Below are positions 8,914 to 46,089 of a stretch of 55,719 bases of DNA, one piece after another. The DNA comes from Phycisphaerae bacterium (GTDB lineage Bacteria; Planctomycetota; Phycisphaerae; JAJVII01). Each line of letters starts with the position of its first letter. The first letter of the stretch is position 1. Position numbers and translations under genes: made by a program. The DNA lies in contig JAJVII010000070.1 of assembly GCA_022072085.1 (NCBI GenBank), positions 1-55,719 of the forward strand, in the 5' to 3' direction. The notes under the pieces are model-generated. The model did no database searches. It was not told the origin of the DNA and was given only the letters and a program-made list of their open reading frames with translations.

Positions 8914-8941
8914 TTGACAAAATGTTCAGATCGCACATAAT
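8914..8941 (+). promoter_or_regulatory. Promoter of the DeoR operon, predicted leaderless
   Basis: TTGACA, 16-base spacer, CATAAT. ATG 8950 begins nine bases after the -10 box and has no ribosome site, so transcript and coding region should begin together. The AT-rich stretch stands out from the G-run before it. Confidence 0.6.
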
Positions 8942-8949
8942 AGCGCACT

Positions 8950-9729
8950 ATGGCACGAAGCGGCGAGAAGGCCCGGCGGCGGCGCGAGCAATTGCTGCGG
9001 ACGCTCCAGGGCTGGCGCGAGGTCTCGACCATCGCGATGGCCCGCCGGCTGGGCGTCTCGCCGATGACCATCCGCCGCGACCTGGCGGCCATCCAGGCCT
9101 CCGGCGCCGCGGTCCGCTGCTACGGCGGGGCGGTGGCGGCCCGCCGGATCACCTTCGAGTTCGCCTTCGACCGGCGGCATCGGCGGAACCTGGCGGCCAA
9201 GCGGCGGATCGGCCAGGCGGCGGCTGCCCGCATCCGGCCCGGGCAGGTGGTGTTCCTGGACACCGGCACGACGACGCTGGAGGCGGCCCGGGCGCTGGCG
9301 GCCCGCGGCGTCGCCTGCACCGCGGTGACCTCCAGCCTGGTCGTCGCCAGCGAGCTGTGGGGCCGCGCCGGCATCGAGCTGCACCTGGTCGGCGGGCGCG
9401 TCCGCGGGGCCAGCCCCGACCTGGTCGGTCCGCAGACCGAGCTGCTGCTCGACCGCCTGACCGCGGACATCGCCCTGGTGGGCAGCGACGGGATCGACCC
9501 GGCGCGGGGGAGCTTCTCGGCCGACGCCGAGTCGGCCGGCGTGGCCGAGCGGATGTGCCGCAACGCCCGACGGGCGGTGGTCGTGGCCGACGCGTCCAAG
9601 CTGGGCGTGGCCGGCGCGGTGCGATACCTGCCCATCGACAAGATGACCGAGTTGATCACCGACCGGTCGGCCGACCGCAGGCAGGTGGCAGCCATGCGCG
9701 GACGAGGCGTAAGGGTGGAAGTCGTGTGA
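8950..9729 (+). CDS. DeoR-family transcriptional regulator
   Basis: 259 residues. The N-terminal winged helix-turn-helix (REQLLRTLQGWREVSTIAMA, then RRLGVSPMTIRRDLAAI, about residues 12-50) is typical of DeoR, and the C-terminal sugar-phosphate sensor domain keeps FLDTGTTTLEAARAL, VTSSLVVASEL and ALVGSDGIDPARG. DeoR proteins usually repress sugar operons until a phosphorylated intermediate binds. As the first gene of a seven-gene operon ending in a sugar kinase, it very probably controls that operon. The TGA overlaps a possible GTG of the next gene; the ATG 15 bases on has the better ribosome site. Confidence 0.92.
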   Translation: MARSGEKARRRREQLLRTLQGWREVSTIAMARRLGVSPMTIRRDLAAIQASGAAVRCYGGAVAARRITFEFAFDRRHRRNLAAKRRIGQAAAARIRPGQVVFLDTGTTTLEAARALAARGVACTAVTSSLVVASELWGRAGIELHLVGGRVRGASPDLVGPQTELLLDRLTADIALVGSDGIDPARGSFSADAESAGVAERMCRNARRAVVVADASKLGVAGAVRYLPIDKMTELITDRSADRRQVAAMRGRGVRVEVV

Positions 9730-9740
9730 CGGGAGCGGAC

Positions 9741-11111: not shown

Positions 11112-11112
11112 G

Positions 11113-27073: not shown

Positions 27074-29755
27074 CTACAGCAGTCCGATGCACAGTCGTCC
27101 CGCGATCACCGCGGCGTCCTCGGCGTCGAAGGCTCGGCGGATCGCGGCGTCGAAGACCACCTCGGCCGACGGGCCCATCTCCTCGTCGCCGACGCGGTAG
27201 ATCAGCGTCACGTCGATCCGTCCGACCGCCTGGACCCGGGCCCCCAGGTCGCCGATCGGCAGCGGCTGCCAGCCGAAGCGGTCCAGGTTCTTCCGCAGCG
27301 TCGCCAGGTCGTTGCCGATCCGCCGCTCCAGCACCGCCGCCGACCGCGCCCGGAACGAGTCCCAGTAGAACGGCCCGCCGGGCAGGTCGCGGAACCCGAT
27401 CAGTTCGCCCGTCGGCCCGACCGGCACGTCGCACAGCAGGTAGTGCAGCGCCAGCACGCGGTCGGCTGCCCGTTTGGCGGCGAGCCGCAGGCGAGCGGGC
27501 TCTTCACCAGCGCCTTCGCCCTCGGTCTCCACCGCCTCGAAATCCGGCGGCGCCAGCCGCACGCGCCGCCCGAACACCGGCACGACGACCGCGCCGTCGG
27601 CGTCGGGTGGTTCCAGCCCCAGCGTCGCGCAGCGGGCCGCCAGGTCCACGCCCTGTAGCTTGCTCGCCGCCAGTCGGGCCGCGTCGATCAGCGCCTGCTC
27701 GCGGTTGCCGGGGGCCGATGAACCCTCACCCCGGCCCTCTCCCTGGGAGGGAGAGGGAGCAAAAGGGGCCTCCTCGTTCGATTCCGCCGCCCGCATTGAA
27801 GAGGAGGGGGCGTCCTCCGGCCTGCCTTTTCGCGATTCCTGCGTCGCCGCCATCCGCGCCTGCACGGAGGGGAACTGCCCGGGGTCGGTGTGCGGCAGGA
27901 AGAGGGCCGCGGTGTATTGCTCCATGTAGCCCGGCTCGCCGCCAAGGTCCACGTAGGTCATCCGCGACGCGAGGTCGAGCTGGCGGCGGCGGTAGTCCTG
28001 CGACACCGCGACCATGTAGCTGCCCATCAGCGACGTGTTGCCGACGTAGGCGAACCGCTCCCGCGGCAGGTCCGGCAGCAGGCCGAGGGTCACCGCGTTC
28101 TCCAGGTCCAGGAACCGCCCGAACCCGCCGGCGATGTAGATGTGGGCCAGGTCGCCGAAGCCGATGCCCACCTGCCCGAGCATCAGCCCGCAGGCCGAGT
28201 AGATCGCGGCCTTGGCCCGCACGATGTTCTCGATGTCCAGTTCGCTGATTGTGACCGGCCGGCCGTCGTGCGACTGCTCCGCCGGGGCGACGACGTAGCG
28301 GGCCCGGCGGCCTTCGATCTGGATGGCCGGGCTCGGCCGCGAGCGGTCCAGCCGCCCGGCCGGGTCCAGCCAGCCGGTCGTCAGCAGCTTGGCCAGCAGG
28401 TCGATCATGCCCGAGCCGCAGATGCCGCGCGGGCGGACCTGGCCGATGGTCCAGTACTTCGCGACGCCGGTGGCCGGGTCGATGTCCACCTTCTCGACCG
28501 CCCCCAGCGCCGCCCGCATGCCGCACTCGATGCCGCCGCCCTCGAACGCCGGGCCGGCGGAGCAGGCGCAGGTCATCAGGAACTCGTTGTTGCCGATCAC
28601 CAGTTCGCCGTTGGTCCCCACGTCGATGAACAGGTTGATCTCGCCGGTGTCGGTCGCCAGGTCGGTGCAGAGCAGCCCCGCGGTGATGTCGCCGCCGACG
28701 TAGCTGCCCACGCAGGGCGACAGGCAGATCCACGAGTCGGGGTTGATCCGCATGCCGATCTCGGCGGCCGTGAGGAACCCGAACCGCGTGACCGTCGGCG
28801 TGTAGGGGTCCAGCCGGATCTGCTCGGGCTCCAGGCCCAGCAGCAGGTGCATCATCGTCGTGTTGCCGGAGACCACCGCGTTGCAGATTTCCGCCGGCGC
28901 GACCGAGCGGCCCTCGCAGACGCCGGCGATCAGCCGATTGATCGTGCCCAGCACGCGGGTCCGCAGCTCCTCCAGCCGCCGCGGCGTGCGGGCGTAGGTG
29001 ATCCGGCTGAGCACGTCCAGCCCGCAGGCGACCTGGTCGTTGTAGTCGCTGCGGGTCGCGAGGATTCGGCCCATCGTCAGGTTGATCAGTTGCACCGCGA
29101 CGGTGGTCGTGCCGACGTCGATCGCCAGGCCGAAGTGCCGCGTCGTCGTGTCGCCGGCCTCGACGCGGATGACGTGCAGCGGCGACTCGCGGCCGGGCCC
29201 GCGGATGAGCGTCACGGTCACCTGTCCGCCGGCCGCCCGCAGCGCCGCCGCCGCCGACCGCATCACCGAGAGGGGATAGATCACCTCGCGGCGGCCCCAG
29301 TCGCGCTGCACGGCGCGGGTCAGGCGGTCCAGGTCGCTCAGGCCGTCGTCGCGGCGCGGCGGCTCGACCGCGAGCAGCCACTTGAGGGCGAGCGGCTCGA
29401 ACTGGAACTCCCGCGGCAGCAGCTCGCGGCGGAGCAGGTGGGTCTCGTCGGCGTCGGTGAGCTTGCCGCCCTCGTAGCCGAGCTGCTCGGGGACCTCGAT
29501 CGTCACGTCGCGCTCGCCCACGCGGCTGCGGCAGGCCAGCACGTGCCCCTCGGCGGCCGCCGTCCGGGTCAGGCTGCCGATGCTATCGCTGTCCACCTGG
29601 CCGCTGGCGACGCGGACGATGCACGCCCCGCAGGTTCCCTTGCCGCCGCAGGCCGCCTCGATGAGCACGCCCGCAGCCTGCGCCGCGTCGGTCAGCTCCG
29701 TGCCCGCGGGCACGCTGGCGGATCGGCCGGACGGCATGAAGGTGACAGTGGGCAT
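27074..29755 (-). CDS. acsV: Corrinoid protein reductive activator (RACo-type) fused to DUF3786
   Basis: 893 residues. Residues 1-90 are a plant-type [2Fe-2S] ferredoxin domain (ACGGKGTCGACIVRV, then VLACRSRV). Next come a linker domain and an ASKHA ATPase domain (LAIDVGTTTVAVQLIN, VSGNTTMMHLLLGLE, FIDVGTNGELVIG, YIAGGFGRFLDLENAVTLG), the layout of RACo, which uses ATP to re-reduce Co(II) in the corrinoid iron-sulfur protein. The enzyme normally ends near residue 620-640. Here a linker containing an in-frame REP-like repeat (about 665-680) leads to a C-terminal domain (about 700-893, VLALHYLLCDVPVGPTGELI, FRDLPGGPFYWDSF) that I identify as DUF3786, normally a separate protein of anaerobes. 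Lies between acsC and the methyltransferase gene. Confidence 0.9.
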   Translation of the reverse strand: MPTVTFMPSGRSASVPAGTELTDAAQAAGVLIEAACGGKGTCGACIVRVASGQVDSDSIGSLTRTAAAEGHVLACRSRVGERDVTIEVPEQLGYEGGKLTDADETHLLRRELLPREFQFEPLALKWLLAVEPPRRDDGLSDLDRLTRAVQRDWGRREVIYPLSVMRSAAAALRAAGGQVTVTLIRGPGRESPLHVIRVEAGDTTTRHFGLAIDVGTTTVAVQLINLTMGRILATRSDYNDQVACGLDVLSRITYARTPRRLEELRTRVLGTINRLIAGVCEGRSVAPAEICNAVVSGNTTMMHLLLGLEPEQIRLDPYTPTVTRFGFLTAAEIGMRINPDSWICLSPCVGSYVGGDITAGLLCTDLATDTGEINLFIDVGTNGELVIGNNEFLMTCACSAGPAFEGGGIECGMRAALGAVEKVDIDPATGVAKYWTIGQVRPRGICGSGMIDLLAKLLTTGWLDPAGRLDRSRPSPAIQIEGRRARYVVAPAEQSHDGRPVTISELDIENIVRAKAAIYSACGLMLGQVGIGFGDLAHIYIAGGFGRFLDLENAVTLGLLPDLPRERFAYVGNTSLMGSYMVAVSQDYRRRQLDLASRMTYVDLGGEPGYMEQYTAALFLPHTDPGQFPSVQARMAATQESRKGRPEDAPSSSMRAAESNEEAPFAPSPSQGEGRGEGSSAPGNREQALIDAARLAASKLQGVDLAARCATLGLEPPDADGAVVVPVFGRRVRLAPPDFEAVETEGEGAGEEPARLRLAAKRAADRVLALHYLLCDVPVGPTGELIGFRDLPGGPFYWDSFRARSAAVLERRIGNDLATLRKNLDRFGWQPLPIGDLGARVQAVGRIDVTLIYRVGDEEMGPSAEVVFDAAIRRAFDAEDAAVIAGRLCIGLL
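27723..27757. repeat. REP-like element inside a coding region, copy 2
   Basis: ccctcaccccggccctctcc with the hairpin ctctccctgggagggagag. Read on the minus strand it encodes PSPSQGEGRGEG in the linker between the activator and DUF3786 domains, without breaking the frame. Confidence 0.85.
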
Positions 29756-29908: not shown

Positions 29909-31252
29909 TCAGTTCAGCCGCGCCTTGATGAAACTCTCCAGGTCCGCCGCCTCGGCCGGGCCGACGAGAACCTCCCAGCCGGGCAGGCCCTCCTCCAGTT
30001 CGCCGCTGATCTGGGCGACGTAGCCGGGGATCACGATCCGCCGGGCGGAGACCTGCGACTCCAGGCCGATCTCGCGGGCGAACTTCGCGATCGAGCCGCC
30101 GGAGAACTTGCCCGCGGCCCACGCGGTCAGCACGCTCATCCCCTCGCACTCGGGCACGAGCAGCCAGGCGCTCGTGCCGCTGTTCTCGATCTCGCCGCTG
30201 ACGATGAAGTAGGTCAGCGAGAAGTTGGTCGTGACGAAGACCGGCGAGTCGGGCTTCGGCTCGCCGACCGGGTAGAGCTTGGGCTCGACCTGGATGGGCT
30301 TCTGCGGATCGGTGTAGACGTTCAGCCGAAGGGTCATCAGCGCCGCCAGTTGGGCCGCGTCGAAGCGCGGCAGCACGATCAGCCCGCCGTACTTGGCGAT
30401 TTCCGTGACGGCCTCGACGGTGGCGTCCAGTTCGTCGCCGTCGCCGATGATCCGCAGCGACGGGTAGCCCAGCGGCTTGAAGCTGTCCTTGATTGCGGCC
30501 CGCCGGGCGATCGAGTTGGTCTGGAACTGCTCAGCCAACCCCTGCACGCCGGACTTGAAGTTCAGCAGCAGGTCGTTGAACCCGGCCGCCTTGATCCGGG
30601 CCGCCAGGGCGACCAGGCCGTCCAGGTCAGCCGCCGACAGCGCCAGGGCGTGCTCGTTCTCCTTGGCGACCGGCCAGAGGGCGTCGGCCGACTCGGGATC
30701 GGGGCAGCAGATGACGCTGTGCGAACCCATGACCGCGACGGCCGCCGACCGCAGGGCGTTGGCGTCGGGGCTGACCAGCACGAGCGGCCGCCCGACGGCC
30801 TTCCACGCCTTGGTCGCCAGGGCGACGAAGGCGGCCGCGTCGGTCCCGCGCTGCGTGACGGCGACCATGTCCACGCGGATCTGCTGGCCGACCCGCTCCA
30901 GCAGGTAGTCGGCGACGGCCTTGAGCGTCGCGTCAACTGTGGCCGCCGGGTCGGTGTCGTTGACGTTAACGGCGATCGCCGGGGCGTGGACGAAGGTCCG
31001 CTCGTGGCGGTAGAGGACGGTCTCCTCGCCGAGCTTGAGTGACTTGTCGGCGCCGAGCGCTACGCCGCGGACGGGGGCCTCGGCTGCTGCGCCCAGAACC
31101 TGCTTGGCCTCCTCGGAGGCGTAGGGGCACTCGGCCAGGTCAGCCTTCTTGGCGGCCAGCTTCATCGCGAACGCCAGGCAGGTGTTGCAGCCGCATTCCT
31201 TGCAGTTGGTCTTCGGGAGAAGTTTCTGAATCTGAAGGCCTGTCAGTGCCAT
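29909..31252 (-). CDS. acsC: Corrinoid iron-sulfur protein large subunit
   Basis: 447 residues, full length for AcsC/CdhE. N-terminal four-cysteine motif for a [4Fe-4S] cluster (LLPKTNCKECGCNTCLAFAM, then LAECPY), a TIM barrel in the middle, and a C-terminal corrinoid-binding domain (SGTSAWLLVPECEGMSVL, ending ARRIVIPGYVAQISGELEEG). It carries the methyl group on cobalt from methyl-tetrahydrofolate to the A-cluster of acetyl-CoA synthase. Its small-subunit partner is not a separate gene but the C-terminal part of the upstream fused protein. Cytoplasmic; oxygen-sensitive. Confidence 0.95.
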   Translation of the reverse strand: MALTGLQIQKLLPKTNCKECGCNTCLAFAMKLAAKKADLAECPYASEEAKQVLGAAAEAPVRGVALGADKSLKLGEETVLYRHERTFVHAPAIAVNVNDTDPAATVDATLKAVADYLLERVGQQIRVDMVAVTQRGTDAAAFVALATKAWKAVGRPLVLVSPDANALRSAAVAVMGSHSVICCPDPESADALWPVAKENEHALALSAADLDGLVALAARIKAAGFNDLLLNFKSGVQGLAEQFQTNSIARRAAIKDSFKPLGYPSLRIIGDGDELDATVEAVTEIAKYGGLIVLPRFDAAQLAALMTLRLNVYTDPQKPIQVEPKLYPVGEPKPDSPVFVTTNFSLTYFIVSGEIENSGTSAWLLVPECEGMSVLTAWAAGKFSGGSIAKFAREIGLESQVSARRIVIPGYVAQISGELEEGLPGWEVLVGPAEAADLESFIKARLN

Positions 31253-31287: not shown

Positions 31288-31383
31288 TGAATGTCGAGTG
31301 TCAAATGTCGAGTGTCGAATGAAAGAAGGATGCGGCCCACGGCTCTTTGCATTCGACATTCGACATTCGTCATTCGACATTTC
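31288..31383. repeat. Inverted word repeat overlapping the end of the AcsB-AcsD gene
   Basis: atgtcgagtgtcaaatgtcg on the left pairs with cattcgacattcgacattcg on the right. The right arm supplies the last three codons and the stop of the gene ending at 31370. The same words occur at 43545-43693. Confidence 0.75.
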
Positions 31384-34300
31384 CATTCCCGTCCATCAGC
31401 CGGTCGATCGTCCGCTTCAGCGCCGTTGCCGCAGCGGGGTGATACATGATCAGGATGTCCGCGCCGCTGTAGAGGAACGTCGTCGCGGTGGACAGCTCCC
31501 ACAGCGCGGCCCGGCGGGCCAGGTCGCCCCAGGCGGGCATGTCGGCCTCAGCCGACCGCAGTTCCTTGACCTTCGCGCACTCCTGGCCGGGCGAGACGAT
31601 CAGCGGGGCTGCGAGCATCTTGTCGCCGCCCAGCGCGGTCAGGCGGATGCGCTCCATCACGCTGTAGGTGTACTCGATGCCGTAGCCCATCGCCCCGGTC
31701 ATCGGGTCGCTGACGATCTGGCCGGGCTGGATGTCCATGTTGGTCAGCAGGATGTTGAGCTGCTTGCCGATGTTCACGTCGATCGGCGACTGGGCGACGA
31801 CGCAGTGGCCGTAGGCCATCGCGGCCCCGGCGATCGTGCGGTAGTTGTCCTGCTCGACCCAGTTGAGCAGCAGGTTCTCGCCGGCGCAGGCGGCGGCGAC
31901 GGCCTTGAGCACCTCGTTGGCCTTGTCGAAGTGGTTGTGCCCGGTCACGATCAGCGGCACGTCCACCGCGGCCAGCACGGCCTTAACCGTCTCGACGGCC
32001 TGCTCGGGTGTGCGGTTGCCGCGCTCGGGGTGCGTGCCGTCCAGGCGGACGCTGATCAGGTCAGCGCCGTACTGGCTGACGCAGAGGCGGGCCATGGCGG
32101 CCGGGTCGTGGACGGCGTCGCCGTAGATTTCGCGAAGGACCTTTGGATACTTCTCGCTGACGGCGTCGAAGACCTCCATCGCGACCAGCGGGCGGTGGGG
32201 CATCCGGCCTTCCCAGAGGTGGAAGGGCATGCAGGTCGCCCCGCCGACGGTCAGCGTGTGGCCGCGCGTGCCGCCCTGCTCGCGGGTCGCGCCCAGCGTG
32301 ACGGTGTTGACGGGGACTTCGCTCTTCTCCTTGCGGATCGCGACCGAACGGACCGCGCCGAGGCGGTCGGATGCCTTGGGAGCGGGCGGAGCGGTGGGAA
32401 CTGACGCGGGGACGCCGGGACGCGGCGACACGGGGAAAGAACCCAGGCCCCGGCCCTCTGGCTGGGAGGGAGAGGGGGGAAGAGAAGAACCCTCACCCCG
32501 GCCCTCTCCCTGAGAGGGAGAGGGGGAAGAGGGGACGCCGAGGAAGCGTTCGCTCAGCGTGTTGATGATCTCGGTGACGATCTGCCGCGTCAGGGCCGGG
32601 CGGATTTCGCCGACGATCTCCTGCGCAATCTCCTTCTTCAGCCGTGCCAGGTCGTCGGCCGTCATGGGCTGGCCGCCAGGCGCCGCCGCAGCCGGCGCGG
32701 CGGATTCCGGCGCTGGCGCAGGTGCAGCCGCGGCCTCCTGTGAAGGCGCGGGGGCGGCCGCCGGGCTTTCGGCGTTCGCGGGAGCGGGGGTCTCCGCGGG
32801 CGCTTCGTGCGCCTGCGCCAGCTCGCTCATGTCGGGCATCGTCAGGGCCGGGTGGCCGACCTTCTCCATGAACGCCCGGATTTCCGACGGGTCGGTCGCG
32901 ACGGTTTCGTCGGCGATCTGGTCCATCAGGTCAGGCGCGCCCTGCTCGGCGAAGCGCCGCCGCAGGTCGTCGCCGAGCAACTCTTTCAGTTCCTTGGGCA
33001 TCCAGACCAGCCGCTTGTGGCCGCCGTCGGCGAAGCAGAACTTTCGGCTGGTCAGGAACACCTTGCCGCAGCCCATGAAGCCGGGCGTCTGCTGTCCGCC
33101 GCCGACGTTGCCGGCCAGCGAACTGAAGGTCATGCCGACGGGCGTGTCGCCGGGGAACTCGCGGTTGACCACCATGATGCCGTTGCACTCGGGGACGTAG
33201 CCGCAGATGACCTCGAAGCAGCCGCAACTGGTCATCGGGCGGTCCATGATCGAGTAGGCGCAGAAGGCCTCGGTCATCTTGTGGCTGTTGGTGAAGACGT
33301 AGTCGTTGACGCCCTTCCAGATGCCGCGGACGGGGTCGAGGCAGTCGCCCTTGAGCACCGGCTGGTTGGGCCCGGTCTCGTCGATTTCGTAGGCGGCCTT
33401 GCCGTCGAGCCAGTTGTAGGCGCCGCACAGCCCCAGCCGCTCGGGCGTGATGACGCAGACGTGGTTGGGCGCGAAACTCTGGCAGAGCAGGCAGGAGTAG
33501 AAGGTGTCCACCGAGTCATCGGTCATGCTCTCCAGGCGGCGGTTACGCTGGTCGTAGGCCTTGCGGGCGATCGGCAGCCGCCGCTCGACCTCGGCCGGAT
33601 CGGTGATCATCGTGACCTTCACCTTGTCCACGATCGCGGGGTAGTCGCCCAGCAGCTTGGCGTGGAGGATTTCGCCGTAGTGCCGCAGCCGCAGGCCGCG
33701 TTCGAAGCCGGTCTTGCTCACGCGGGTCCAGATGATGTCGCGCTGGCCCATGTGCCAGACGCCCTCGGCGCCGTTGAGCAGGTGATGAATCTGCCGCTCG
33801 AGGATCGGCTCGAAGTCGGGCTGCATCTTTCGCCCGGCCACCTCGACCCAGATGGCCAGCGGAACGGCCGTGCCCGGCTGGACGCTGTCGATGTCCGGGC
33901 CGATCAGGTCGATCTGGCCGTCGTTGACTTCGTCCATGCCCACGGAGGTGACGAACTCGAAGGCGTGGGAGCGGTTGCCGCCGAACTCGACGTGCACGTC
34001 GTTCTTGCGGATGCGTTCGCCCTCGAACGCCGGCCCGTAGGGCACGGGCACGGGGACCTTGGTGATGCGGATCTTGCAGCCGCGGACCTCCAGGGCCTTC
34101 TCGACCATCGTCTCGCAGGGCACGCCGGAGACGACGTGCTCGTAGGTGCAGACGCCGGTGGGCAGAATCTGCGGGATATCGGTGTCGGCGACGACGGGGA
34201 AGCCGTAGTTGATCGCCCCGGCCGCGGCGGCGTACTTCTCCGCGTCCACCTCGTCCAGCGCCAGCACGAACGCGAAGATGCGGTTCTTGTTGTAGCGAAG

Positions 34301-35002
34301 GTTGGCTTCGTAGTCGCCGGGCTTCACCCCGCCGAAACTCAGCGCCGCCCGGTTGGCAAAGCCCAGCGCGTACACCAGCGAAGAGACGTCCTTGCCGAAG
34401 GGGACCAGCCGCGTCTCCCAGCCGAGCTGCACGCCGGCGTCGGCCAGTTGCTCGGCGAACTGCACGCCGCCGGTCGCACCGCCCATGAAGACGTAGATGT
34501 TCTTCTCCTGAAGCTCGCGGGCGATCCGGACGGCCGTCTCGTTGCTGGGTGCCCGGCCGGTGATTGCGGCAAAGCCCGGGGCCGTGCCGTCCACGAACTC
34601 GATGCCGCGCTCGCGCATGATGACGTCGCTGGCGGCGCCCAGCCAGATGCCCTTGACCGGCGGCGGGCCGATGAGGTACTTGCAGGCCTCGATGATCTCA
34701 CAGGCGAACAGCGCCGCGACGCCGGCGTCCAGGGCGTTGCCCAGGTACGGCAGCCAGACCTTCTCGCTGGGCCGGTTGGGCAGCAGCTCCTTGGCCAGCC
34801 GCAGCACCTCGCGGCAGTCGGCCAGCGTGCGGACGGCCTTGCCGGTGAAGGCGTAGATGATCGGCAGGAAGTAGGCGGTGTTGGGGAAGCCGACGGCGGC
34901 CGACTCGCCCCTGGCGGCGACGGCCTGGTCGAGCTTGGCCTCGGCCCGCGCCACCCAGATCGTCGCCCCGTCAATCGCGCTTGCGCAGATCAGCTTGGAC
35001 AT
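31370..35002 (-). CDS. acsB: Fused acetyl-CoA synthase / corrinoid protein small subunit (AcsB-AcsD)
   Basis: 1210 residues. Residues 1-727 are a complete acetyl-CoA synthase: CODH-contacting N-terminal domain, central domain, and A-cluster cysteines in SCLLCQSFAPNHVC, RLGLCGAY and the hallmark TSCGCFEVI. Residues about 728-880 are an Ala/Pro-rich flexible linker with a short helical patch and two in-frame REP-like repeats. Residues about 884-1210 are the corrinoid protein small subunit (AcsD/CdhD TIM barrel): VNTVTLGATREQGGTRGHTL, VTGHNHFDKANEVL, MTGAMGYGIEYTYSVMERIR. Normally these are two genes. The fusion ties the methyl donor to the site of acetyl-CoA assembly and forces 1:1 synthesis. 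It sits between acsA and acsC in the operon. Confidence 0.93.
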   Translation of the reverse strand: MSKLICASAIDGATIWVARAEAKLDQAVAARGESAAVGFPNTAYFLPIIYAFTGKAVRTLADCREVLRLAKELLPNRPSEKVWLPYLGNALDAGVAALFACEIIEACKYLIGPPPVKGIWLGAASDVIMRERGIEFVDGTAPGFAAITGRAPSNETAVRIARELQEKNIYVFMGGATGGVQFAEQLADAGVQLGWETRLVPFGKDVSSLVYALGFANRAALSFGGVKPGDYEANLRYNKNRIFAFVLALDEVDAEKYAAAAGAINYGFPVVADTDIPQILPTGVCTYEHVVSGVPCETMVEKALEVRGCKIRITKVPVPVPYGPAFEGERIRKNDVHVEFGGNRSHAFEFVTSVGMDEVNDGQIDLIGPDIDSVQPGTAVPLAIWVEVAGRKMQPDFEPILERQIHHLLNGAEGVWHMGQRDIIWTRVSKTGFERGLRLRHYGEILHAKLLGDYPAIVDKVKVTMITDPAEVERRLPIARKAYDQRNRRLESMTDDSVDTFYSCLLCQSFAPNHVCVITPERLGLCGAYNWLDGKAAYEIDETGPNQPVLKGDCLDPVRGIWKGVNDYVFTNSHKMTEAFCAYSIMDRPMTSCGCFEVICGYVPECNGIMVVNREFPGDTPVGMTFSSLAGNVGGGQQTPGFMGCGKVFLTSRKFCFADGGHKRLVWMPKELKELLGDDLRRRFAEQGAPDLMDQIADETVATDPSEIRAFMEKVGHPALTMPDMSELAQAHEAPAETPAPANAESPAAAPAPSQEAAAAPAPAPESAAPAAAAPGGQPMTADDLARLKKEIAQEIVGEIRPALTRQIVTEIINTLSERFLGVPSSPSPSQGEGRGEGSSLPPSPSQPEGRGLGSFPVSPRPGVPASVPTAPPAPKASDRLGAVRSVAIRKEKSEVPVNTVTLGATREQGGTRGHTLTVGGATCMPFHLWEGRMPHRPLVAMEVFDAVSEKYPKVLREIYGDAVHDPAAMARLCVSQYGADLISVRLDGTHPERGNRTPEQAVETVKAVLAAVDVPLIVTGHNHFDKANEVLKAVAAACAGENLLLNWVEQDNYRTIAGAAMAYGHCVVAQSPIDVNIGKQLNILLTNMDIQPGQIVSDPMTGAMGYGIEYTYSVMERIRLTALGGDKMLAAPLIVSPGQECAKVKELRSAEADMPAWGDLARRAALWELSTATTFLYSGADILIMYHPAAATALKRTIDRLMDGNGNVE
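32442..32526. repeat. Two tandem REP-like elements inside acsB-acsD, copies 3 and 4
   Basis: ccaggccccggccctctggc (32442 onward) and ccctcaccccggccctctcc (32490 onward), each followed by a short inverted repeat. On the minus strand they encode SPSQGEGRGEG and SPSQPEGRGLG in the interdomain linker. Confidence 0.85.
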
Positions 35003-35192: not shown

Positions 35193-37142
35193 TCAGACTT
35201 CCAGCGCCCGGCGGTCCTTCATGTCGAGCATCTTGCGCTCCTGGGCGCGGTTGATGCCGAGCTTCTCGCGGCGGGCGTCCAGCAGACGCATGATCGTGTC
35301 GGCCGCCTTCTGCGAATCCTCGGCCACGTGGAACGACGCCCCGAACAGGCCGGCCGTCTCCTCGTTGAGAAACTTCACGACCTTCTCCGATCCCTCGATG
35401 TGGAACGGATGGCCGAGGATCACGTCGATGCCCGAGGCGACGAAGTAGCAGCCGATGGTGACGGCCTTCTCGCTCATCCACTCCGGGGCGACGCCGACCG
35501 CGGGCACCGCCGACAGGTCGTCGCCCAGGCCGCCCTCGGCGACGACCTCGGTCGCGGCTTCGAGGATGCGGCTGTTGTCCACGCAGCTTCCCATGTGCAG
35601 CACGGGGGGCATGCCGACGGCCTCGCAGACTTCCTTCAGGCCCGCGCCGGCCTGGGCCAGGGCGGCCTCGGGGGTGAGTCGGCCTTCCTTGGCCGACGCG
35701 ATGGCCGCACAGCCGGTCTTGACGACCAGCACGTTGCGGGCGATCAGCTCCTCGGTCAGGGCGTTAGTGTACTCTTCGAGCTTGCTGTTGGGATTCGAGC
35801 AGCCGACGATCCCGACCACGCCCTTGATCCGCCCCTGCATGATTGCGTCGTTGAGCGGGCGGAAGCTGGCGCGGAATCGGCCGCCGAGCATGTACTTGAT
35901 CGCGTCCACCGAGAACCCAGCCACCAGCGGGCGCTGATGGTCGGGGATGGCCATCTTGCGGCGGTCGCGGCGGGCGTAGTTGTCGATCGCCTTGCGGAGC
36001 AGGGCCTTGGCCGACTCCAGGGCGTGCTCGTCGTCGAAGGTCGCGTGCTCGGCGCCGATGGTGCGGGCGATGTCGCTGGTCGAGACGACCTGGGTGTGAT
36101 AGGCCGCCGCCACCTCCGGCAGGCTGGGCATGCAGCACTGCACGTCGGTGATCATCATCTCGACGGCGCCGGTGAGGATGGCCAGCTCCTGCTGGAGGAA
36201 GTTGCCGGCGACCGGGATGCCGTGCCGCACGAGGATTTCGTTGGCGGTGCAGCAGATGCCGGCCAGCGTGACGCCGCTCGCCCCGGCGGCCTTGGCGTAA
36301 TCGAGAACCTCCGGGTCGCTGGAGGCGACCGCGAGCATCTCGCTGAGCGCCGGCTCGTGGCCGTGGACGACGACGTTGACCGTGTCGGCCCCCAGCACGC
36401 CGAGGTTGGCGCTGCTGCGGACCGGCGAGGGGGTGCCGAACAGGATGTCCGAGACGATGGTCGCGACGCGCGAGCCGCCCCAGCCGTCCGCGAGGGCGGT
36501 GCGGAACGCGTGCATGAGCAGGTTGCGGTAGTCGTGGTCGACGCCCATGTGCGTGCGGTGCAAGCACTCGACGACCATGCGGTCGATGCCGGCCGGCTTG
36601 ATGTCGTGGGCGTCCCAGACGTTCTGCCGCGTGACCGGGGCCAGCCGCAGCGTCGCCAGGGCCTGCTCCTGCGAGGTGAACTCGGTCAGGAAGCGGTTGG
36701 CCAGATCCAGGGCGACGGCCGGCGCGTCGCGGCCCTCCTCCTCGATGTCATACTCGCGGGCGGCCCGCCGCAGGGCCCGCTCGTCCTTGATGACGTAGCT
36801 GCCGGCTTTGCCCTGGGCCGCGTCGCGCAGCAGCAGGACGAGCCGCCGGCCGTGGTCGCAGTGGGCCGCCGCTCCGCCGGCCACCTCGCGCAGGAAGTTG
36901 CGGGCGACGATGGTGTCGGCGTCGGCGCCGCAGACGCCCAGCGGCGCCTTGGGCGTGATCCGGCAGGGCCCCATGTGGCAGAGCCGGCAGCAGAGGCCCT
37001 GCGTGCCGAAGGTGCAGTGCGGCGACTGCGCGTCGGCCCGCGAGAAGACGGTCGAGACGCCGGCCTCGTCGGCGCGGGTCAGCACTTCCAGCGACGCGGC
37101 GTCGGTGACGCGGTCCGCGGGCTTCTTCTTTTCCTTGGCCAT
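35193..37142 (-). CDS. acsA: Ni-Fe-S carbon monoxide dehydrogenase catalytic subunit
   Basis: 649 residues, with GGAGAG upstream of the start. The D/B-cluster cysteines appear in TFGTQGLCCRLCHMGPCRIT and VCGADADTIVARN; C-cluster and active-site segments include GICCTANEIL, MLHMGSCVDNSRILEA-like wording, SKEGR and the IEGSEKVVKFL C-terminus. It reduces CO2 to CO (or the reverse) and, with acetyl-CoA synthase encoded just downstream, forms the bifunctional complex that feeds CO through a channel to the A-cluster. Two maturation ATPases of the CooC type are encoded upstream. Length and motif order are standard. Confidence 0.95.
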   Translation of the reverse strand: MAKEKKKPADRVTDAASLEVLTRADEAGVSTVFSRADAQSPHCTFGTQGLCCRLCHMGPCRITPKAPLGVCGADADTIVARNFLREVAGGAAAHCDHGRRLVLLLRDAAQGKAGSYVIKDERALRRAAREYDIEEEGRDAPAVALDLANRFLTEFTSQEQALATLRLAPVTRQNVWDAHDIKPAGIDRMVVECLHRTHMGVDHDYRNLLMHAFRTALADGWGGSRVATIVSDILFGTPSPVRSSANLGVLGADTVNVVVHGHEPALSEMLAVASSDPEVLDYAKAAGASGVTLAGICCTANEILVRHGIPVAGNFLQQELAILTGAVEMMITDVQCCMPSLPEVAAAYHTQVVSTSDIARTIGAEHATFDDEHALESAKALLRKAIDNYARRDRRKMAIPDHQRPLVAGFSVDAIKYMLGGRFRASFRPLNDAIMQGRIKGVVGIVGCSNPNSKLEEYTNALTEELIARNVLVVKTGCAAIASAKEGRLTPEAALAQAGAGLKEVCEAVGMPPVLHMGSCVDNSRILEAATEVVAEGGLGDDLSAVPAVGVAPEWMSEKAVTIGCYFVASGIDVILGHPFHIEGSEKVVKFLNEETAGLFGASFHVAEDSQKAADTIMRLLDARREKLGINRAQERKMLDMKDRRALEV

Positions 37143-37307: not shown

Positions 37308-38084
37308 TCAGCCCGCCGCCGCGGCGACGGCCGCTCCGTCGAGGAATCGTTCGATCCGGGCGACGACCGGATGGTCCGGCGGCAGCGCTGCCAGGTCGCA
37401 GCCGCGTTCGTCCAGTTCCGCCAGCGTCGCATCGTCCGGCAGGCCGACCACGAAGTCCGCCACGGTGTGCTCGCGCAGGGCGGCTGCGCCCTCGGGCAGT
37501 TCGTCGCGGCGGAGGCGGTTGACGACGATCGCCAGCCGGTCGAACTGCACCTGCATCTCGCGGGCCAGGTCGTAGAGCCGCCCGATCGTCGCCAGTCCGC
37601 GGGCCGACGGGTCGGTGACCATGACCATGAGCTGCACCTTCTGGACGATGCGGCGGCTGAGGTTCTCCAGGCCGGCCTCGTTGTCGATGACCACGTAGGG
37701 GTAGCTCTCGGACATGCGGGCCAGGGCCTGCTGGAGGACGTTGTTGGCGTAGCAGTAGCAGCCGGGGCCTTCGGGTCGCCCCATCGCGATCAGGTCGAAC
37801 GAGTCGGCTTCGACGAGGCTCTCGGCGATCTTTAGTTCCAGGAGCTGCTGCTTGCTGACGCCGGCCGCCAGCCCCTTGCCGGCGATCTGGCGGGCCTCCT
37901 CGCGCACGCCGCCGATGGTCGTGCCGACCGAGACGCCCAGCACGCGGTCGAGGTTGGTGTTAGGGTCGGCGTCGACCGCGAGCACCGGGGCGCAGCCGCG
38001 GGCGATCAGCCGCGAGACGATCAGCCCCGCGACGGTGGTCTTGCCCACGCCGCCCTTGCCGGTGATGGCGATGGTGTAGGTCAT
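37308..38084 (-). CDS. cooC: CooC-type CODH nickel-insertion ATPase
   Basis: 258 residues from ATG 38084; an earlier in-frame ATG at 38174 lies in repeat DNA and is unlikely. MinD/ParA-type P-loop with the deviant Walker A ITGKGGVGKTTVAGL, DADPNTNL, and the CooC metal-binding C-x-C in GRPEGPGCYCYANN; VVIDNEAGLENLSRR is Walker B/switch II. CooC hydrolyses ATP while delivering nickel to the C-cluster of CO dehydrogenase, whose gene is next in the operon. Confidence 0.93.
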   Translation of the reverse strand: MTYTIAITGKGGVGKTTVAGLIVSRLIARGCAPVLAVDADPNTNLDRVLGVSVGTTIGGVREEARQIAGKGLAAGVSKQQLLELKIAESLVEADSFDLIAMGRPEGPGCYCYANNVLQQALARMSESYPYVVIDNEAGLENLSRRIVQKVQLMVMVTDPSARGLATIGRLYDLAREMQVQFDRLAIVVNRLRRDELPEGAAALREHTVADFVVGLPDDATLAELDERGCDLAALPPDHPVVARIERFLDGAAVAAAAG

Positions 38085-38102
38085 AGCCGACTCCCGCAGA
38101 AC

Positions 38103-38215
38103 CGGGAAATTTTGGATTTTCGATTGCGGATTTTCGATTTTCGGAAGGACCGGCGACAGCCGCGCGTTTCTCAATCGAAAATCTCAAATCCCAAATCGCA
38201 AATCCGTTCCCGTTG
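38103..38215. repeat. Inverted word repeat between mesB-like gene and cooC
   Basis: ggattttcgattgcggattt on the left, caatcgaaaatctcaaatcc on the right; same word family as 29793-29905. Confidence 0.75.
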
Positions 38216-38220
38216 ACGAA

Positions 38221-39300
38221 TCAGTCCAGTCCGTACTTCTTCTTCAGGGCCGCGCTGGTCGGGCCCAGCAGGGAGAAGACGCGCGTCGAGTCCTCCACGC
38301 TCAGCGAGCCGGTTCCGCAGGAGGGCGTGATGGCCGACTGCCGGACGATCAGCGCCTTATCGATGCCGGTCCGCTTGGCCAGGTGGTCCACGACCCGGTC
38401 GAAGTGGGCGACCATCCTGTCGACGTCCTGCTCGCGGATCTTCGGCGAGGTGGGCAGGATGCCCCAGGCCAGCGCCCCGCTGCGGTCGAACAGCTTCTTC
38501 ACATGCTCGGGATACAGGGCGATCGTCTCACCGTATTCAAACGCGTCGAAGTTCACGAGGTCCACGCCCGCGTCGATCAGCATGCTCCACTCGGTGTTGG
38601 CGCAGACGTGCACGCCGGCCAGCCCGCCGTCGGCGTGGATCGCCTCGATCACCTCGCCGAGGATGGCGACCACGTCGTCGCGCCCGACCGAGACGTAGGT
38701 CGAGCTGCCGAAACCGGCCAGGATCGGCTCGTCGATGAAGCAGATCACGTTGTCGGCGAAGGGGCGGAACTTCTGAATCTGCCAGCGGGCCTTCATCGCC
38801 AGGGCCTTGACGACGACGTCGCGGAACTCGTCGTTGTAGTAGAGCGCCCGCTTGTCCTGGTCGACAATGGTCAGGCTGAACGAGAGCGGACCGGTGACCT
38901 GAACCTTGACGAAGGGCCGCTTCTTCCCCTCGGCCTTCAGCCGCTTCTCCATCGCGTAGATGCCGCGGGAGAACTCCGGGCCGATGGCCATCGCCGAGCA
39001 GTCGCCGTTGCCGGCGTCGGGGTCCATCGCCGCCAGGTAGGCCTCGTAGAACGCCGCCAGATCCTCGGAGGTGTCGCCGGTGGTGTCGAAATACATCCGC
39101 CGCTTGTCGGCCTCGATGTGCCGCCGCGGAAGGCCCTCGCTGTATTGAATCTCCATCTGCTCGTTGAGGCTCATCGTCGGCAGTTGCGGCCAGACCGGGG
39201 CGTCGGGGATGCTCGCCAGCACCAGGTCCACCGCCTGCTCGGGCGTGGGGTGGGGAAAGCTGCCGATCCCGGTTGCGAGGCATTTGGGCGTGAAGCTCAT
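38221..39300 (-). CDS. mesB: Core methionine synthase (folate-domain-free MetE-like, probably MesB)
   Basis: 359 residues, about half the length of MetE, because it has only the catalytic C-terminal-type barrel. Zinc ligands look intact: VHVCANTEWSML (His and Cys), the FIDEP segment and TPSCGTGSL (second Cys). ATGIGSFPHPTPEQAV at the N-terminus is the family start. Published work (Price and colleagues) defined core methionine synthases MesA-D and predicted that the MesB family in Wood-Ljungdahl anaerobes takes methyl groups from the corrinoid iron-sulfur protein. Location inside this cluster, between two cooC genes and upstream of acsA, fits that prediction well. The family assignment among MesA-D is from context plus motif memory. 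ATG 39300 starts after AAAGGAA. Confidence 0.75.
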   Translation of the reverse strand: MSFTPKCLATGIGSFPHPTPEQAVDLVLASIPDAPVWPQLPTMSLNEQMEIQYSEGLPRRHIEADKRRMYFDTTGDTSEDLAAFYEAYLAAMDPDAGNGDCSAMAIGPEFSRGIYAMEKRLKAEGKKRPFVKVQVTGPLSFSLTIVDQDKRALYYNDEFRDVVVKALAMKARWQIQKFRPFADNVICFIDEPILAGFGSSTYVSVGRDDVVAILGEVIEAIHADGGLAGVHVCANTEWSMLIDAGVDLVNFDAFEYGETIALYPEHVKKLFDRSGALAWGILPTSPKIREQDVDRMVAHFDRVVDHLAKRTGIDKALIVRQSAITPSCGTGSLSVEDSTRVFSLLGPTSAALKKKYGLD

Positions 39301-39390
39301 GGAGAGTTCCTTTGTTCGAATTTCGGGTTCCTCGTGTCCTGCAATCCTGCCGTGCTCGCTGACGGTCGCGGCAATCGGGCGTTCATGGAG

Positions 39391-39539
39391 TCCTGCAAGA
39401 GAAACCTTCACCACAGAGAACACAGAGGGCACAGAGTCGGGCGTATCTGAAGATTCTTGATTTCGGGCATTTCTCGACGCTTCTGACTTCCTCTGTGATC
39501 TCTGTGTCCTCTGTGGTGAATGAAGATTTCTCTTGCAGG
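39391..39539. repeat. Very long hairpin between the second cooC and mesB-like gene
   Basis: tcctgcaagagaaaccttca followed by ccacagagaacacagagg on the left, and cctctgtggtgaatgaagat then ttctcttgcagg on the right: arms of ~46 bases, largely complementary. Confidence 0.8.
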
Positions 39540-39557: not shown

Positions 39558-40352
39558 TCAGCGAGCGCGGGAGCCGGCTGCCTGTTTCACTTTCTCAAGG
39601 ATCGATTCGAAGCGGGCGATCAGTTCCGGCGGCAGGCCTTCCAGCACCGATCGTCCCGCCCGGTCGGCCGACCGGATGGTCGGGCTGAACGGGATAACGC
39701 CCAGCAACTCCTGGCCGGCCAGGCTGTCGCGGATGAACCGCTCATCGTCCGGGCCCGTCACCTTGTTGGCGACGAAGCGCACGCGGTCGGCCAGCCCGAT
39801 CTCGCCGGCCAGCCGAACGACGCGGCGGGCGCTGTCGATGGATCGTTGCCCCGGCTCGACGACGACCAGCAGCGTGTCCACGCCGCGGGCGGTGGATCGG
39901 CCGAGGTGCTCGATGCCGGCCTCCATGTCCATGACCAGGGCGTCGTGCTTGTGCAGGACCAGGTCCTGCACCAGGGCGCGGATCAGGACGCTCTCGGGGC
40001 AGGCGCAGCCGGAGCCGCCGGACTCGATCGCCCCCAGCACCAGCAACGCCACCCCGTTGTGCCGCAGGGCGTAGCCGTCGGCGATGTCGGCGACCTCGGG
40101 GTTGATCTTGAACATCTGCCCGTATTGCTTGACCTTCGCGCCGGTCCGCTGCTCGATCAGGGCGCGGTGCTGGCTGATCGGGACGATGCCCGCCTGCACG
40201 TCGGCCGGGATGCCCAGCGCCGACGCCAGGTTGCCGTCGGGGTCGGCATCGACCGCGAGCACGCGTCCGCCGTCGCGGGCCGCCAGCAGCGCCAACGCCG
40301 CCGACAGCGTGCTCTTGCCGACTCCGCCCTTGCCTGAAACCGCCAGTTTCAT
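39558..40352 (-). CDS. Second CooC/AcsF-like maturation ATPase
   Basis: 264 residues from ATG 40352 (AGCGGAG upstream; an in-frame ATG at 40397 would add 15 residues). Walker A AVSGKGGVGKSTLSAAL, DADPDGNLASALGIP, metal-site motif GGSGCACPESVLIRAL and MDMEAGIEHLGR. It differs clearly from the cooC product (CAC in place of CYC, an aspartate in VMDMEAG). In acetogens a related ATPase (AcsF) activates acetyl-CoA synthase, so the two ATPases here may serve CODH and ACS separately. First gene of the operon, so it may also set expression of the rest. Confidence 0.88.
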   Translation of the reverse strand: MKLAVSGKGGVGKSTLSAALALLAARDGGRVLAVDADPDGNLASALGIPADVQAGIVPISQHRALIEQRTGAKVKQYGQMFKINPEVADIADGYALRHNGVALLVLGAIESGGSGCACPESVLIRALVQDLVLHKHDALVMDMEAGIEHLGRSTARGVDTLLVVVEPGQRSIDSARRVVRLAGEIGLADRVRFVANKVTGPDDERFIRDSLAGQELLGVIPFSPTIRSADRAGRSVLEGLPPELIARFESILEKVKQAAGSRAR

Positions 40353-40572
40353 CTCACGCTCCGCTTCCCCGGCGACGCCCGGGGCCGATAGTTTCATGCT
40401 ACGGCATTCCCCGGGCAGGTCTTGTAGGCTGGCGGATTATTTTGGTAATTTTATGCGCGCCGGGTCCGGTAACCCGCCTCAAGTCCCTTTCCGCCGCGAT
40501 GAGGGGGGCTGGAGAGCCTCAATCCTTCTGACCCGGGAGCCGGTCCCGGGGCGATCCGCCGCCTCCGCGCGC

Positions 40573-43693: not shown

Positions 43694-44713
43694 TCAGTAC
43701 CCTTCCGGCTCCAGCTTCACCTTGCCGCGGAAGATGTGGTGCACGACGGCGGTGTAGACCAGCACCGCGGGCATGCCGACCAGGGCGATGACGAGCATCG
43801 CCTTGAGCGTCAGCGGCGTCGAGCTGCTGTTGGCGATCGTCAGGCTGCGCGACAGGTCGTCGGAGCAGGGGAGCAGCCGCGGATAGAGCCCGCCGGCCGC
43901 CAGGGCCATGCCCGCCCCGATGGCCGCCGAGCTGGCGACGAACGCCCGGCTGAACCGCCCGCTGCGGACCAGGGGCACGACGGCTGCCAGTCCGCCGGCT
44001 GCCAGCACGAGCAGCACCCAGGTCAGCGGCCGCGCCAGCAGGGCGCGTTCAAACAGGAACGGCGAGACGGCCCGGGCCGCCGCGGTCGCGCCGATGAACA
44101 GCACGATGAACAGCGCCCAGAGCGGACCGACGAGCCGAACCAGCCGGGCCTGCTGCTCGCCCTCGCACTTGCCGGCCAGGTAGATCGCCCCGTGGGCGGT
44201 CGCCCCGACCAGCGTGAGGACGCCGACCAGCAGACTGAAGGGGTTGAGCAGGCCGATGAACGTGCCGGCGTAGTCGCCCTGGGCGTTCAGCGGCACGCCG
44301 CGCAGGACGTTGCCGAATGCGACGCCCAGCAGCAGCGCCGGAACGGCCGAGCAGACCCAGAAGGTCGCGTCCCACGTCCGCCGCCAGCCGGGGGAGTTGA
44401 TCCGCGAGCGGAACTCCAGCGCCACCGCGCGTCCGATCAGCACCGCCAGCAGCAGCATCAGGGCGATGTAGAAACCGGAGAAGACCGTCGCGTAGACCGG
44501 CGGAAAGGCGGCGAACAAGGCCCCGCCGGCCGTCAGCAGCCAGACCTCGTTGCCGTCCCAGGTCGGGCCGATCGAGCCCAGCGAGATCCGCCGCTGGTCG
44601 TCGCCGCGCGCCAAGATGTGCAGCGCGCCGACGCCCAGGTCGTATCCGTCCATGATCGCATAGCCGATCAGCAGCACGAACAGCAGCACAAACCAGGTGT
44701 CTTGCAGAGTCAT
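43694..44713 (-). CDS. cydB: Cytochrome bd quinol oxidase subunit II
   Basis: 339 residues, eight to nine hydrophobic helices. The N-terminus TWFVLLFVLLIGYAIMDGYD, then LGVGAL, and IGPTWDGNEVWLLTAGGALF are the CydB signatures (the conserved Trp/Asp/Asn quartet near the haem region). It overlaps cydA by four bases (ATGA), so the two are co-translated in a 1:1 ratio. Together they form the inner-membrane bd oxidase that reduces oxygen to water with electrons from quinol, at very high oxygen affinity. Confidence 0.95.
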   Translation of the reverse strand: MTLQDTWFVLLFVLLIGYAIMDGYDLGVGALHILARGDDQRRISLGSIGPTWDGNEVWLLTAGGALFAAFPPVYATVFSGFYIALMLLLAVLIGRAVALEFRSRINSPGWRRTWDATFWVCSAVPALLLGVAFGNVLRGVPLNAQGDYAGTFIGLLNPFSLLVGVLTLVGATAHGAIYLAGKCEGEQQARLVRLVGPLWALFIVLFIGATAAARAVSPFLFERALLARPLTWVLLVLAAGGLAAVVPLVRSGRFSRAFVASSAAIGAGMALAAGGLYPRLLPCSDDLSRSLTIANSSSTPLTLKAMLVIALVGMPAVLVYTAVVHHIFRGKVKLEPEGY

Positions 44714-46089
44714 GCCTGCCTCCCGGGGTTGGAGAGCGCCGCCACGCCCATCTCGACCGCTGCGTGCCTTATCTTATGCCGGATCAGGAACAGGTAGAGC
44801 GCGAACAGCGCCAGGTAGATCGCGCCCAGCAGGAAGATCGAGAACAGCACATGGGCCGCCGACAGGTTGCTGGAGAAGGCGTCGGAGGTCCGCATGACGT
44901 GGTAGACGATCCAGGGCTGCCGACCGGCCTCGGCGGTCATCCACCCGAACTGGCAGGCCGCCAGCGGCAGCGGAATCGAGATCAGCAGCACCCAGAGGAA
45001 CCATCGGCTGGCGTAGACCTTGCCGCCGCGCAGCCGCAGCACGCCCCAGGCGGTGGCGGCCAGGAAGAACGTGCCCAGGATGACCATGTTGTGGAAGGAG
45101 ACGAAGGTCAGCCAAAGCGGCGGGATGTCGTCGGCGGGGAACTGGTCGATGCCCTTGATCTCGGCATTGGTGTCGCCGAACGCCATCCAGGAGAGCAGGC
45201 CGGGCACTTCTACCGATGCCTTGAGCTGCGGCGGCTTGGAGTAGGGCAGGGCGAAGAGCACCAGCGGGGCGCTGTCGGACGAGTTGTAGAGCCCTTCGAT
45301 GGCGGCGAACTTCTCCGGCTGCATCCGCGCCACCTGCTGGGCGTGCATGTGGCCGAAGGGGAACGCGACGAGGATCGAGCCGATCAGGCCGACGACCAGC
45401 GAGACCTTGAGGGCCTTGCGGGCAGCCGCCGCGACGGCCTCGGGCTGGGCGGCGTCCTTGCGGGCCCGCAGCAGCAGCCAGGCGGCCAGGCCGGCCATGA
45501 AGAACGCCCCGCTCACCACCGCCGCCATGATCGTGTGCAGGTAGCGAATATTGGTCGAGGGGTTGAAGACGGCCGCCCAGAAGTCGGTCAGCTCGGCCCG
45601 GCCGAGCGCCTCGTTCACGCGGAAGCCTGCGGGCGTCTGCATCCAGGAGTTGGCGACGATGATCCAGAACGCCGAGAGCGTCGATCCGATCGCGACCATC
45701 AGGATCGCGAACCAGTGCCAGCCCCTGGCGATCCGGTTGCGGGCGAAGAGGTAGACGCCCAGGAAGGTGGACTCCAGGAAGAAGGCGAAGACGCCCTCAG
45801 CCGCCAGCGGGGCGCCGAAGATGTCGCCGACGAACTTGGAGTAGCGGGCCCAGTTGGTGCCGAACTGGAACTCCATCACGATGCCGGTCGCGACGCCCAC
45901 CGCGAAGGTGAGCCCCAGCAGCTTGCCGAAGAACTTGCCCGCCTGCTGCCAGGCGAGGTCGTTCCGCCGCCAGCCCATCCACTCGACGATGACCAGCAGC
46001 CACGCCAGCCCGATGGTGATTGGCGGAAAGAGGAAGTGGAACCCGACGGTGATGGCGAACTGGATGCGGCTGAGCATCTGTACGTCCAT
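44710..46089 (-). CDS. cydA: Cytochrome bd quinol oxidase subunit I
   Basis: 459 residues, about nine membrane helices. The N-terminal LSRIQFAITVGFHFLFPPIT holds the haem b595/d histidine; MEFQFGTNWARYSKFVGDIF, LESTFLGVYLFA, and GRQPWIVYHVMRTSDAF (quinol-binding side) are conserved. The region between helices 6 and 7 is short, so it is of the short-Q-loop class. No separate CydX-like small gene was seen next to it. The gene follows the Rrf2 regulator by 66 bases on the same strand and is probably in its operon. Confidence 0.95.
   Translation of the reverse strand: MDVQMLSRIQFAITVGFHFLFPPITIGLAWLLVIVEWMGWRRNDLAWQQAGKFFGKLLGLTFAVGVATGIVMEFQFGTNWARYSKFVGDIFGAPLAAEGVFAFFLESTFLGVYLFARNRIARGWHWFAILMVAIGSTLSAFWIIVANSWMQTPAGFRVNEALGRAELTDFWAAVFNPSTNIRYLHTIMAAVVSGAFFMAGLAAWLLLRARKDAAQPEAVAAAARKALKVSLVVGLIGSILVAFPFGHMHAQQVARMQPEKFAAIEGLYNSSDSAPLVLFALPYSKPPQLKASVEVPGLLSWMAFGDTNAEIKGIDQFPADDIPPLWLTFVSFHNMVILGTFFLAATAWGVLRLRGGKVYASRWFLWVLLISIPLPLAACQFGWMTAEAGRQPWIVYHVMRTSDAFSSNLSAAHVLFSIFLLGAIYLALFALYLFLIRHKIRHAAVEMGVAALSNPGRQA

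Follow-up and report, generated by a model that had tools for sequence, protein, structure and literature searches.

A single gene of a Phycisphaerae bacterium, here called acsBD, encodes a complete acetyl-CoA synthase (AcsB) fused to a complete small subunit (AcsD) of the corrinoid iron-sulfur protein (CFeSP). The gene lies in a 55,719-nucleotide stretch of DNA, hereafter the window (contig JAJVII010000070.1 of assembly GCA_022072085.1, positions 1 to 55,719), within an operon for carbon monoxide dehydrogenase/acetyl-CoA synthase (CODH/ACS). The carbon-fixation pathway whose key enzyme is CODH/ACS may be the oldest of all. Methyl transfer by this enzyme requires two large proteins to meet and then to part. 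With moderate confidence, AcsBD is read here as one predicted chain of ~130 kDa that tethers the synthase to CFeSP and is probably oligomerised, and whose CFeSP often exchanges its methyl group independently of AcsE. The two domains are known, as is the chemistry overall; what is apparently new is the architecture, together with the linker helix and their coupling to an operon lacking acsE, as a full-text literature search found no earlier description of any of the three, though an earlier mention may still exist.

The gene occupies positions 31370..35002 of the minus strand as a single open frame of 1210 amino acids; the plus-strand reading of the same interval is interrupted by stops. The initial annotation had placed a 1210-codon frame at these positions, and it is borne out. 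The start codon is ATG, and residues M1 and S2 are invariant in an alignment of 55 fused proteins. In the source genome (G000:C42), acsBD is single-copy and has no internal stops. The architecture recurs in relatives: a scan of one genome per species (GTDB) returned at least 583 of them, and 67 of the best 80 are fused, a proportion that does not estimate the frequency of the fusion because these 80 were picked by similarity.

The AcsB part (residues 1-725; 32828..35002, minus strand) consists of an N-terminal CODH-binding domain, a middle domain and the A-cluster domain, and the AcsD/CdhD part (residues 885-1210; 31373..32350, minus strand) is the triosephosphate isomerase-type barrel of the CFeSP small subunit. 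Pfam assigns CODH_A_N to residues 21-110, CdhC to 318-472, ACS_CODH_B_C to 483-725 and CdhD to 905-1140. Residues 10-725 match the NCBIfam equivalog NF040764 at 1039.7 bits (cut-off 800), which identifies a full-length bacterial AcsB, and residues 887-1203 match the subfamily NF003376 at 382 bits (cut-off 280), which identifies a CFeSP small subunit. Moreover, the A-cluster positions C504, C507, C516, C526, C593, G594 and C595 are invariant in all 55 aligned fused sequences. An AlphaFold2 model of residues 1-1200 (mean predicted local distance difference test score, pLDDT, 76.9; predicted template modelling score, pTM, 0.49) contains two ordered parts, which Foldseek matches to the ACS fold at one end and to the CFeSP small subunit at the other (TM 0.94 to 4djd_D). 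Relatives of known structure comprise ACS chains from Carboxydothermus, Moorella and Clostridium autoethanogenum, as well as two CFeSP small subunits, 4djd_D and 9fzy_E. Both parts are complete and, in the model, retain their folds, in agreement with the full AcsB and full AcsD barrel recognised in the initial annotation.

The two parts are joined by a linker of ~160 amino acids. It had been described as an Ala/Pro linker of ~150 residues, a composition confined to its outer segments; between them lies a conserved helix with four-residue periodicity, which that description had overlooked. Arm 1 (residues 726-781; 32660..32827, minus strand) is Ala/Glu/Pro-rich and predicted to be flexible, with residues 732-781 at pLDDT < 50. 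The helix (residues 782-821; 32540..32659, minus strand) is modelled as a lone helix at 782-820. Arm 2 (residues 822-884; 32351..32539, minus strand) is likewise predicted to be flexible (residues 822-872 at pLDDT < 50) and holds a copy of a dispersed palindromic genomic repeat, CCCTCTCCCTnnnAGGGAGAGGG, at 32501..32525 of the minus strand, where it is read in frame as SPSPSQGEGRGEG. Genome-wide, the pattern of this repeat is matched 24 times on each strand, against none for the reversed control. Among the fused proteins the arms are Ala/Glu/Pro-rich and freely variable in sequence, with median lengths of 40 (arm 1) and 27 (arm 2) amino acids. The linker of locus L060 (within 8001-11573) carries stretches resembling intergenic repeats, SVIPANAGIQ and SPSPRAGEGG, which suggests that insertion of repeats into the arms is accepted in at least two lineages.

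The helix, with a consensus of roughly TPxxIxxIKxxxxxEVxxExKxxxTxEIVxDIIxTLSxKFLG, is present in nearly all fused proteins, across phyla. Its hydrophobic positions are 785, 788, 792, 796, 800, 804, 808, 812, 816 and 820, and those from 796 to 816 (796, 800, 804, 808, 812, 816) are occupied by V, I, L, M or F in 52 of 52 sequences. The periodicity spectrum peaks at 90 degrees per residue, that is, at a period of 4.0, which excludes a heptad (3.5) coiled coil. In 19 sequences, residues 790-793 are deleted; since this common deletion removes exactly one period, the hydrophobic stripe itself appears to be under selection. A four-residue repeat winds right-handedly round an alpha helix, the geometry of right-handed coiled coils. 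Independently, the weak Pfam matches of the helix are most often to VASP_tetra (7 of 30 members at E values up to 1, best 1e-4), and PDB entry 1usd is matched weakly (E 1.8). Like the right-handed coiled coil of the VASP tetramerisation domain (PF08776), the AcsBD helix is short and has hydrophobic residues mostly at every fourth position; it differs in a spacing near a strict 4.0, and the profile similarity is sub-threshold, a likeness that need not reflect common ancestry. Unfused AcsB terminates directly past HPALxMxPMF and unfused AcsD has no helix-bearing head. Derivation of the helix from either is thereby rejected, and its absence from both indicates that it came with the fusion. Most likely, it serves to join several chains, although docking to another protein is also considered below.

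The second feature of the fused systems is the absence of acsE. No AcsE homologue occurs in any fused locus; in unfused clusters, AcsE adjoins acsD or lies downstream wherever the DNA extends that far. In the source genome (97% complete), the only pterin-binding proteins are FolP and MetH, with no AcsE. Twenty other genomes with the fusion were searched: a clear but unlinked AcsE homologue was found in two (G054, at L123, and G051, at L152), a short pterin-binding protein of uncertain type in three (G041, G042, G057) and an extra or partial match of ambiguous type in G049 and G050, and in all others, among them the complete chromosome G060, the search returned only FolP and/or MetH or nothing at all. 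Because acsE is absent from the fused operons and from most tested genomes, we infer that the CFeSP of the acsE-less systems exchanges methyl groups with a partner other than methyltetrahydrofolate via AcsE. Replacement of AcsE by MtrH was rejected, with no MtrH in 24 genomes, as was a general supply through MttB-type methyltransferases, which occur in only 10 of 21 fused genomes and might serve in some (the source genome has three). MetF is encoded in most fused genomes and was not found in G050 (L048), G052 (L058), G054 (L065) and G055 (L067), which, except for G054, also lack a clear AcsE, yet carry the acsBD operon.

Exchange, in either direction, would most plausibly proceed through two operon proteins, a MesB-like homologue of the core methionine synthase (38221..39432, minus strand) and a homocysteine S-methyltransferase (PF02574; 25860..27434, minus strand; domain at residues 243-515 of the frame, whose true start is probably internal, with the gene being a conserved neighbour); this is the least certain step of the proposal. 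The initial annotation was silent on the absent acsE and on these two putative thiol methyltransferases. In particular, H238, C240, D259 and C335 of the MesB-like protein are invariant in 7 of 7 sequences and form a candidate Zn site, H-x-C...D...C, with the same 2/19/76 spacing as in Dehalococcoides MesB, where the Zn ligands are residues 214/216/235/311. The protein has no Pfam match even at E 1 and no PDB match at E 10, and a curated family for it seems to be missing. Dehalococcoides MesB is a methionine synthase thought to draw methyl groups from CFeSP (PMC7005905, PMC7857596). It shares with the operon-linked homologue the candidate ligands (H-x-C, +19 D, +76 C) and the CFeSP neighbour, and Dehalococcoides also lacks acsE. 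Unlike that system, most tested fused genomes, including the source genome, also encode MetH, and the role may therefore differ; Price et al. have noted that such MesB-like proteins may serve another function.

Taken together, the chain would run from acetyl-CoA synthase through arm 1, a short self-associating or docking helix and arm 2 to AcsD. The AcsB part would bind the CODH dimer (AcsA) and receive CO through the gas channel, whereas AcsC would bind the AcsD end, so that CFeSP is tethered to its own synthase. When the A-cluster domain opens, the tethered methyl-CFeSP could reach the A-cluster without a bimolecular search and then swing off, in the manner of the lipoyl arm of 2-oxoacid dehydrogenases; methyl transfer would be intramolecular once AcsC is bound. 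The helix would most likely join several chains (four, if it is VASP-like), and the oligomerised chains with their CODH dimers could build a large assembly, perhaps a network, broadly comparable to the archaeal acetyl-CoA decarbonylase/synthase (ACDS) particle. The complete parts, the acsC gene directly downstream and the predicted flexible tether make a covalently joined CODH/ACS/CFeSP, as initially proposed, the natural reading. The claim that tethering fixes the methyl-carrying subunit beside the A-cluster is too strong: a flexible tether is indeed predicted, but disordered arms would raise the local concentration and fix nothing, and the corrinoid of CFeSP is located at the AcsC-AcsD interface, where mostly AcsC holds it. 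In the published mechanism, methyl transfer requires ACS to release CODH and reach CFeSP (PMC11474084), which fits a tether. The same work states that no ACS-CFeSP structure existed at that time (PMC11474084); the PDB now lists a C. autoethanogenum CODH/ACS with CFeSP (9fzy, 2025). Only tentatively might AcsBD be regarded as a separate class of CODH/ACS, defined by a covalent tether, a right-handed tetramer helix that gathers the chains into a large, perhaps networked assembly, and transfer of methyl groups to or from homocysteine or a similar thiol through the MesB-like and homocysteine methyltransferases, in place of AcsE and methyl-folate.

Several points weigh against a tethered, oligomerised and AcsE-independent complex. 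The window helix scores 14.8 bits against the VASP tetramerisation domain, under the Pfam cut-off of 25.8. Three fused proteins (L075, L076, L089) have no such helix, which is thus not strictly required, and at pLDDT ~60-66 and pTM 0.49 the model gives no docking or oligomeric state. The intact chain of ~130 kDa is a prediction from the sequence. Moreover, the unlinked AcsE homologues mean that AcsE-independence is not universal; most genomes also encode MetH, and MttB-type donors or an unlinked AcsE may be at work in some lineages.

It is conceivable, if rather doubtful, that the helix is instead a docking motif for another operon protein (AcsA, AcsC, AcsV or a methyltransferase), like the small subunit-binding domain of the E2 component. 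The position of the helix between Ala/Pro-rich arms, as in 2-oxoacid dehydrogenase E2, is consistent with docking, as are the E2 linkers among the weak composition matches of the linker and the conservation being strongest at the C-terminal end of the helix (xxEIVxxIIxTLSxKFLG). However, a stripe at every fourth residue over about ten turns winds round the helix, which is easier to reconcile with a right-handed bundle than with docking through a single face, and VASP_tetra remains the commonest weak match.

It is unlikely that the fusion merely sets a 1:1 stoichiometry and co-expression of AcsB and AcsD, with a passive linker and a CFeSP that serves any synthase without tethered channelling. 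The wide variation of the arm lengths, their uptake of repeat elements and the three fused proteins without the helix would agree with such a role; nevertheless, the central helix is much more conserved than a passive spacer needs, which rejects an Ala/Pro spacer for the middle of the linker, and the architecture has been kept across many phyla after transfer. Post-translational cleavage of the linker, which would yield ordinary separate AcsB and AcsD, is very improbable: disordered linkers are readily cut and the sequence is compatible with cleavage, but no conserved cleavage motif was noticed in the freely varying arms, and the element that is conserved is the helix.

The fusion is genuine. 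An assembly, sequencing or read-through artefact has a negligible chance of explaining it and is refuted for the family as a whole, for although the window contig comes from a draft genome of 72 contigs and two related loci (L082, L090) show apparent frameshifts within acsBD, in which sequencing error or decay are both possible, 65 of the 67 fused loci have a single uninterrupted frame in independent assemblies, including the complete chromosome CP070691.1 (L086). Several of the fused loci end at contig ends. Among the remaining loci of the best 80, nine have a separate acsB and four leave the contig within or just past acsB, one of which (L084) carries the linker helix.

The initial annotation had called for a search for the same two-domain order across Planctomycetota and other phyla, and the 67 fused loci bear labels of at least 13 phyla, taken from the titles of records that are mostly metagenome-assembled genomes: Planctomycetota, Lentisphaerota/Verrucomicrobiota, Spirochaetota (including termite-gut Treponema), Bacillota, Synergistota, Actinomycetota, Fibrobacterota, Thermodesulfobacteriota, Myxococcota, Bdellovibrionota, Acidobacteriota/Aminicenantes, Bacteroidota, Ignavibacteriota, KSB1, SAR324 and Raymondbacteria. 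The scan and its independent uninterrupted frames rule out a planctomycete-specific or chance fusion; judging from these sequences, AcsBD is neither unique nor confined to planctomycetes and represents a widely transferred architecture, shared by many anaerobes that are not closely related. In the AcsB tree, all fused rows form a single clade with 100% support, and the sole "unfused" row inside it is the frameshifted fused gene of L082. The AcsD and AcsC trees each contain a single split between fused and unfused proteins (97 and 99% support, respectively, in the Shimodaira-Hasegawa-like approximate likelihood ratio test). As the fused proteins form one clade in all three trees, a single origin is probable, and since phyla are intermixed within the clade, the cassette probably moved horizontally; the fusion thus probably arose once and then spread with its operon. 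Two CODH/ACS lineages exist side by side within the class of the source organism. Among 40 relatives of the source genome, acsB was found in eight others, and acsD is a separate frame in all eight. These distant split systems (G002, G006, G011, G015, G020, G024, G029, G035) have an AcsB identity of 51-62%, and acsE adjoins acsD in them wherever the DNA permits checking.

AcsBD can be compared with two known systems. With the acetogen CODH/ACS (AcsA-AcsB of Moorella, Carboxydothermus and Clostridium autoethanogenum), it shares an AcsB that carries both the N-terminal CODH-binding domain and every A-cluster ligand, as well as the same AcsD and AcsC families. In acetogens, AcsB and AcsD are separate polypeptides and AcsE is encoded with the complex, whereas a single frame, one AcsBD chain with its linker helix, is found here and in the fused relatives, and neither the operon nor the majority of tested genomes contain acsE. 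Acetogens have a standalone CFeSP (AcsC-AcsD), for which ACS has to open; in methanogens, the two meet inside a 2.2 MDa particle once ACS has left CODH (PMC11474084). The archaeal ACDS (CdhA-E) is a stable particle of ~2.2 MDa that incorporates CFeSP (PMC11474084), and it resembles AcsBD, in which CFeSP would likewise stay with the synthase permanently. It differs in having separate subunits and an ACS without the N-terminal domain, whereas the AcsBD junction is covalent and its AcsB is of the bacterial type. In place of the short CdhC and Cdh-type CODH of the archaeal system, the window encodes a full-length AcsB and a CooS-type AcsA.

AcsBD would thus represent a bacterial solution parallel to the archaeal particle, and the natural chain offers a sample of fixed 1:1 composition in which the poorly understood transfer of the methyl group is easier to study, both structurally and kinetically. 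It also bears on genome surveys: scoring the Wood-Ljungdahl pathway by counts of AcsA-AcsE (as in PMC12827605) can miss or misjudge acsBD organisms because acsE is absent from most tested fused genomes. The organisms concerned include termite-gut treponemes and many uncultured sediment bacteria.

The fused loci share a conserved gene set, comprising the homocysteine methyltransferase gene, the mesB-like gene, cooC2, cooC1, acsA, acsBD, acsC, acsV and the DUF3786 gene, in a slightly variable order. The acsC gene (29909..31252, minus strand) lies immediately downstream of acsBD in the window and, where their DNA reaches that far, in the other fused loci; it encodes the CFeSP large subunit, the separate corrinoid-binding partner of AcsD with an N-terminal Fe-S domain (NF003195, 478 bits; PF04060 and PF03599). 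On the same strand, acsA (35193..37142) encodes the catalytic subunit of the Ni-CODH (TIGR01702, 633 bits), and two conserved neighbours with Pfam P-loop matches encode a cooC1-type nickel-insertion P-loop ATPase (37308..38174) and a cooC2-type P-loop ATPase (39558..40397). The acsV gene (27074..29755, minus strand), which encodes the RACo corrinoid activator, is fused to DUF3786 according to Pfam and NCBIfam, and a copy of the dispersed palindromic repeat lies at the junction (27734-27758); in other fused loci, unlike the window, DUF3786 is a separate adjacent gene. Finally, a cytochrome bd oxidase pair (43694-46089 of the window; cydB confirmed by Pfam, cydA inferred from sequence) lies a few kb from the oxygen-sensitive CODH/ACS operon.

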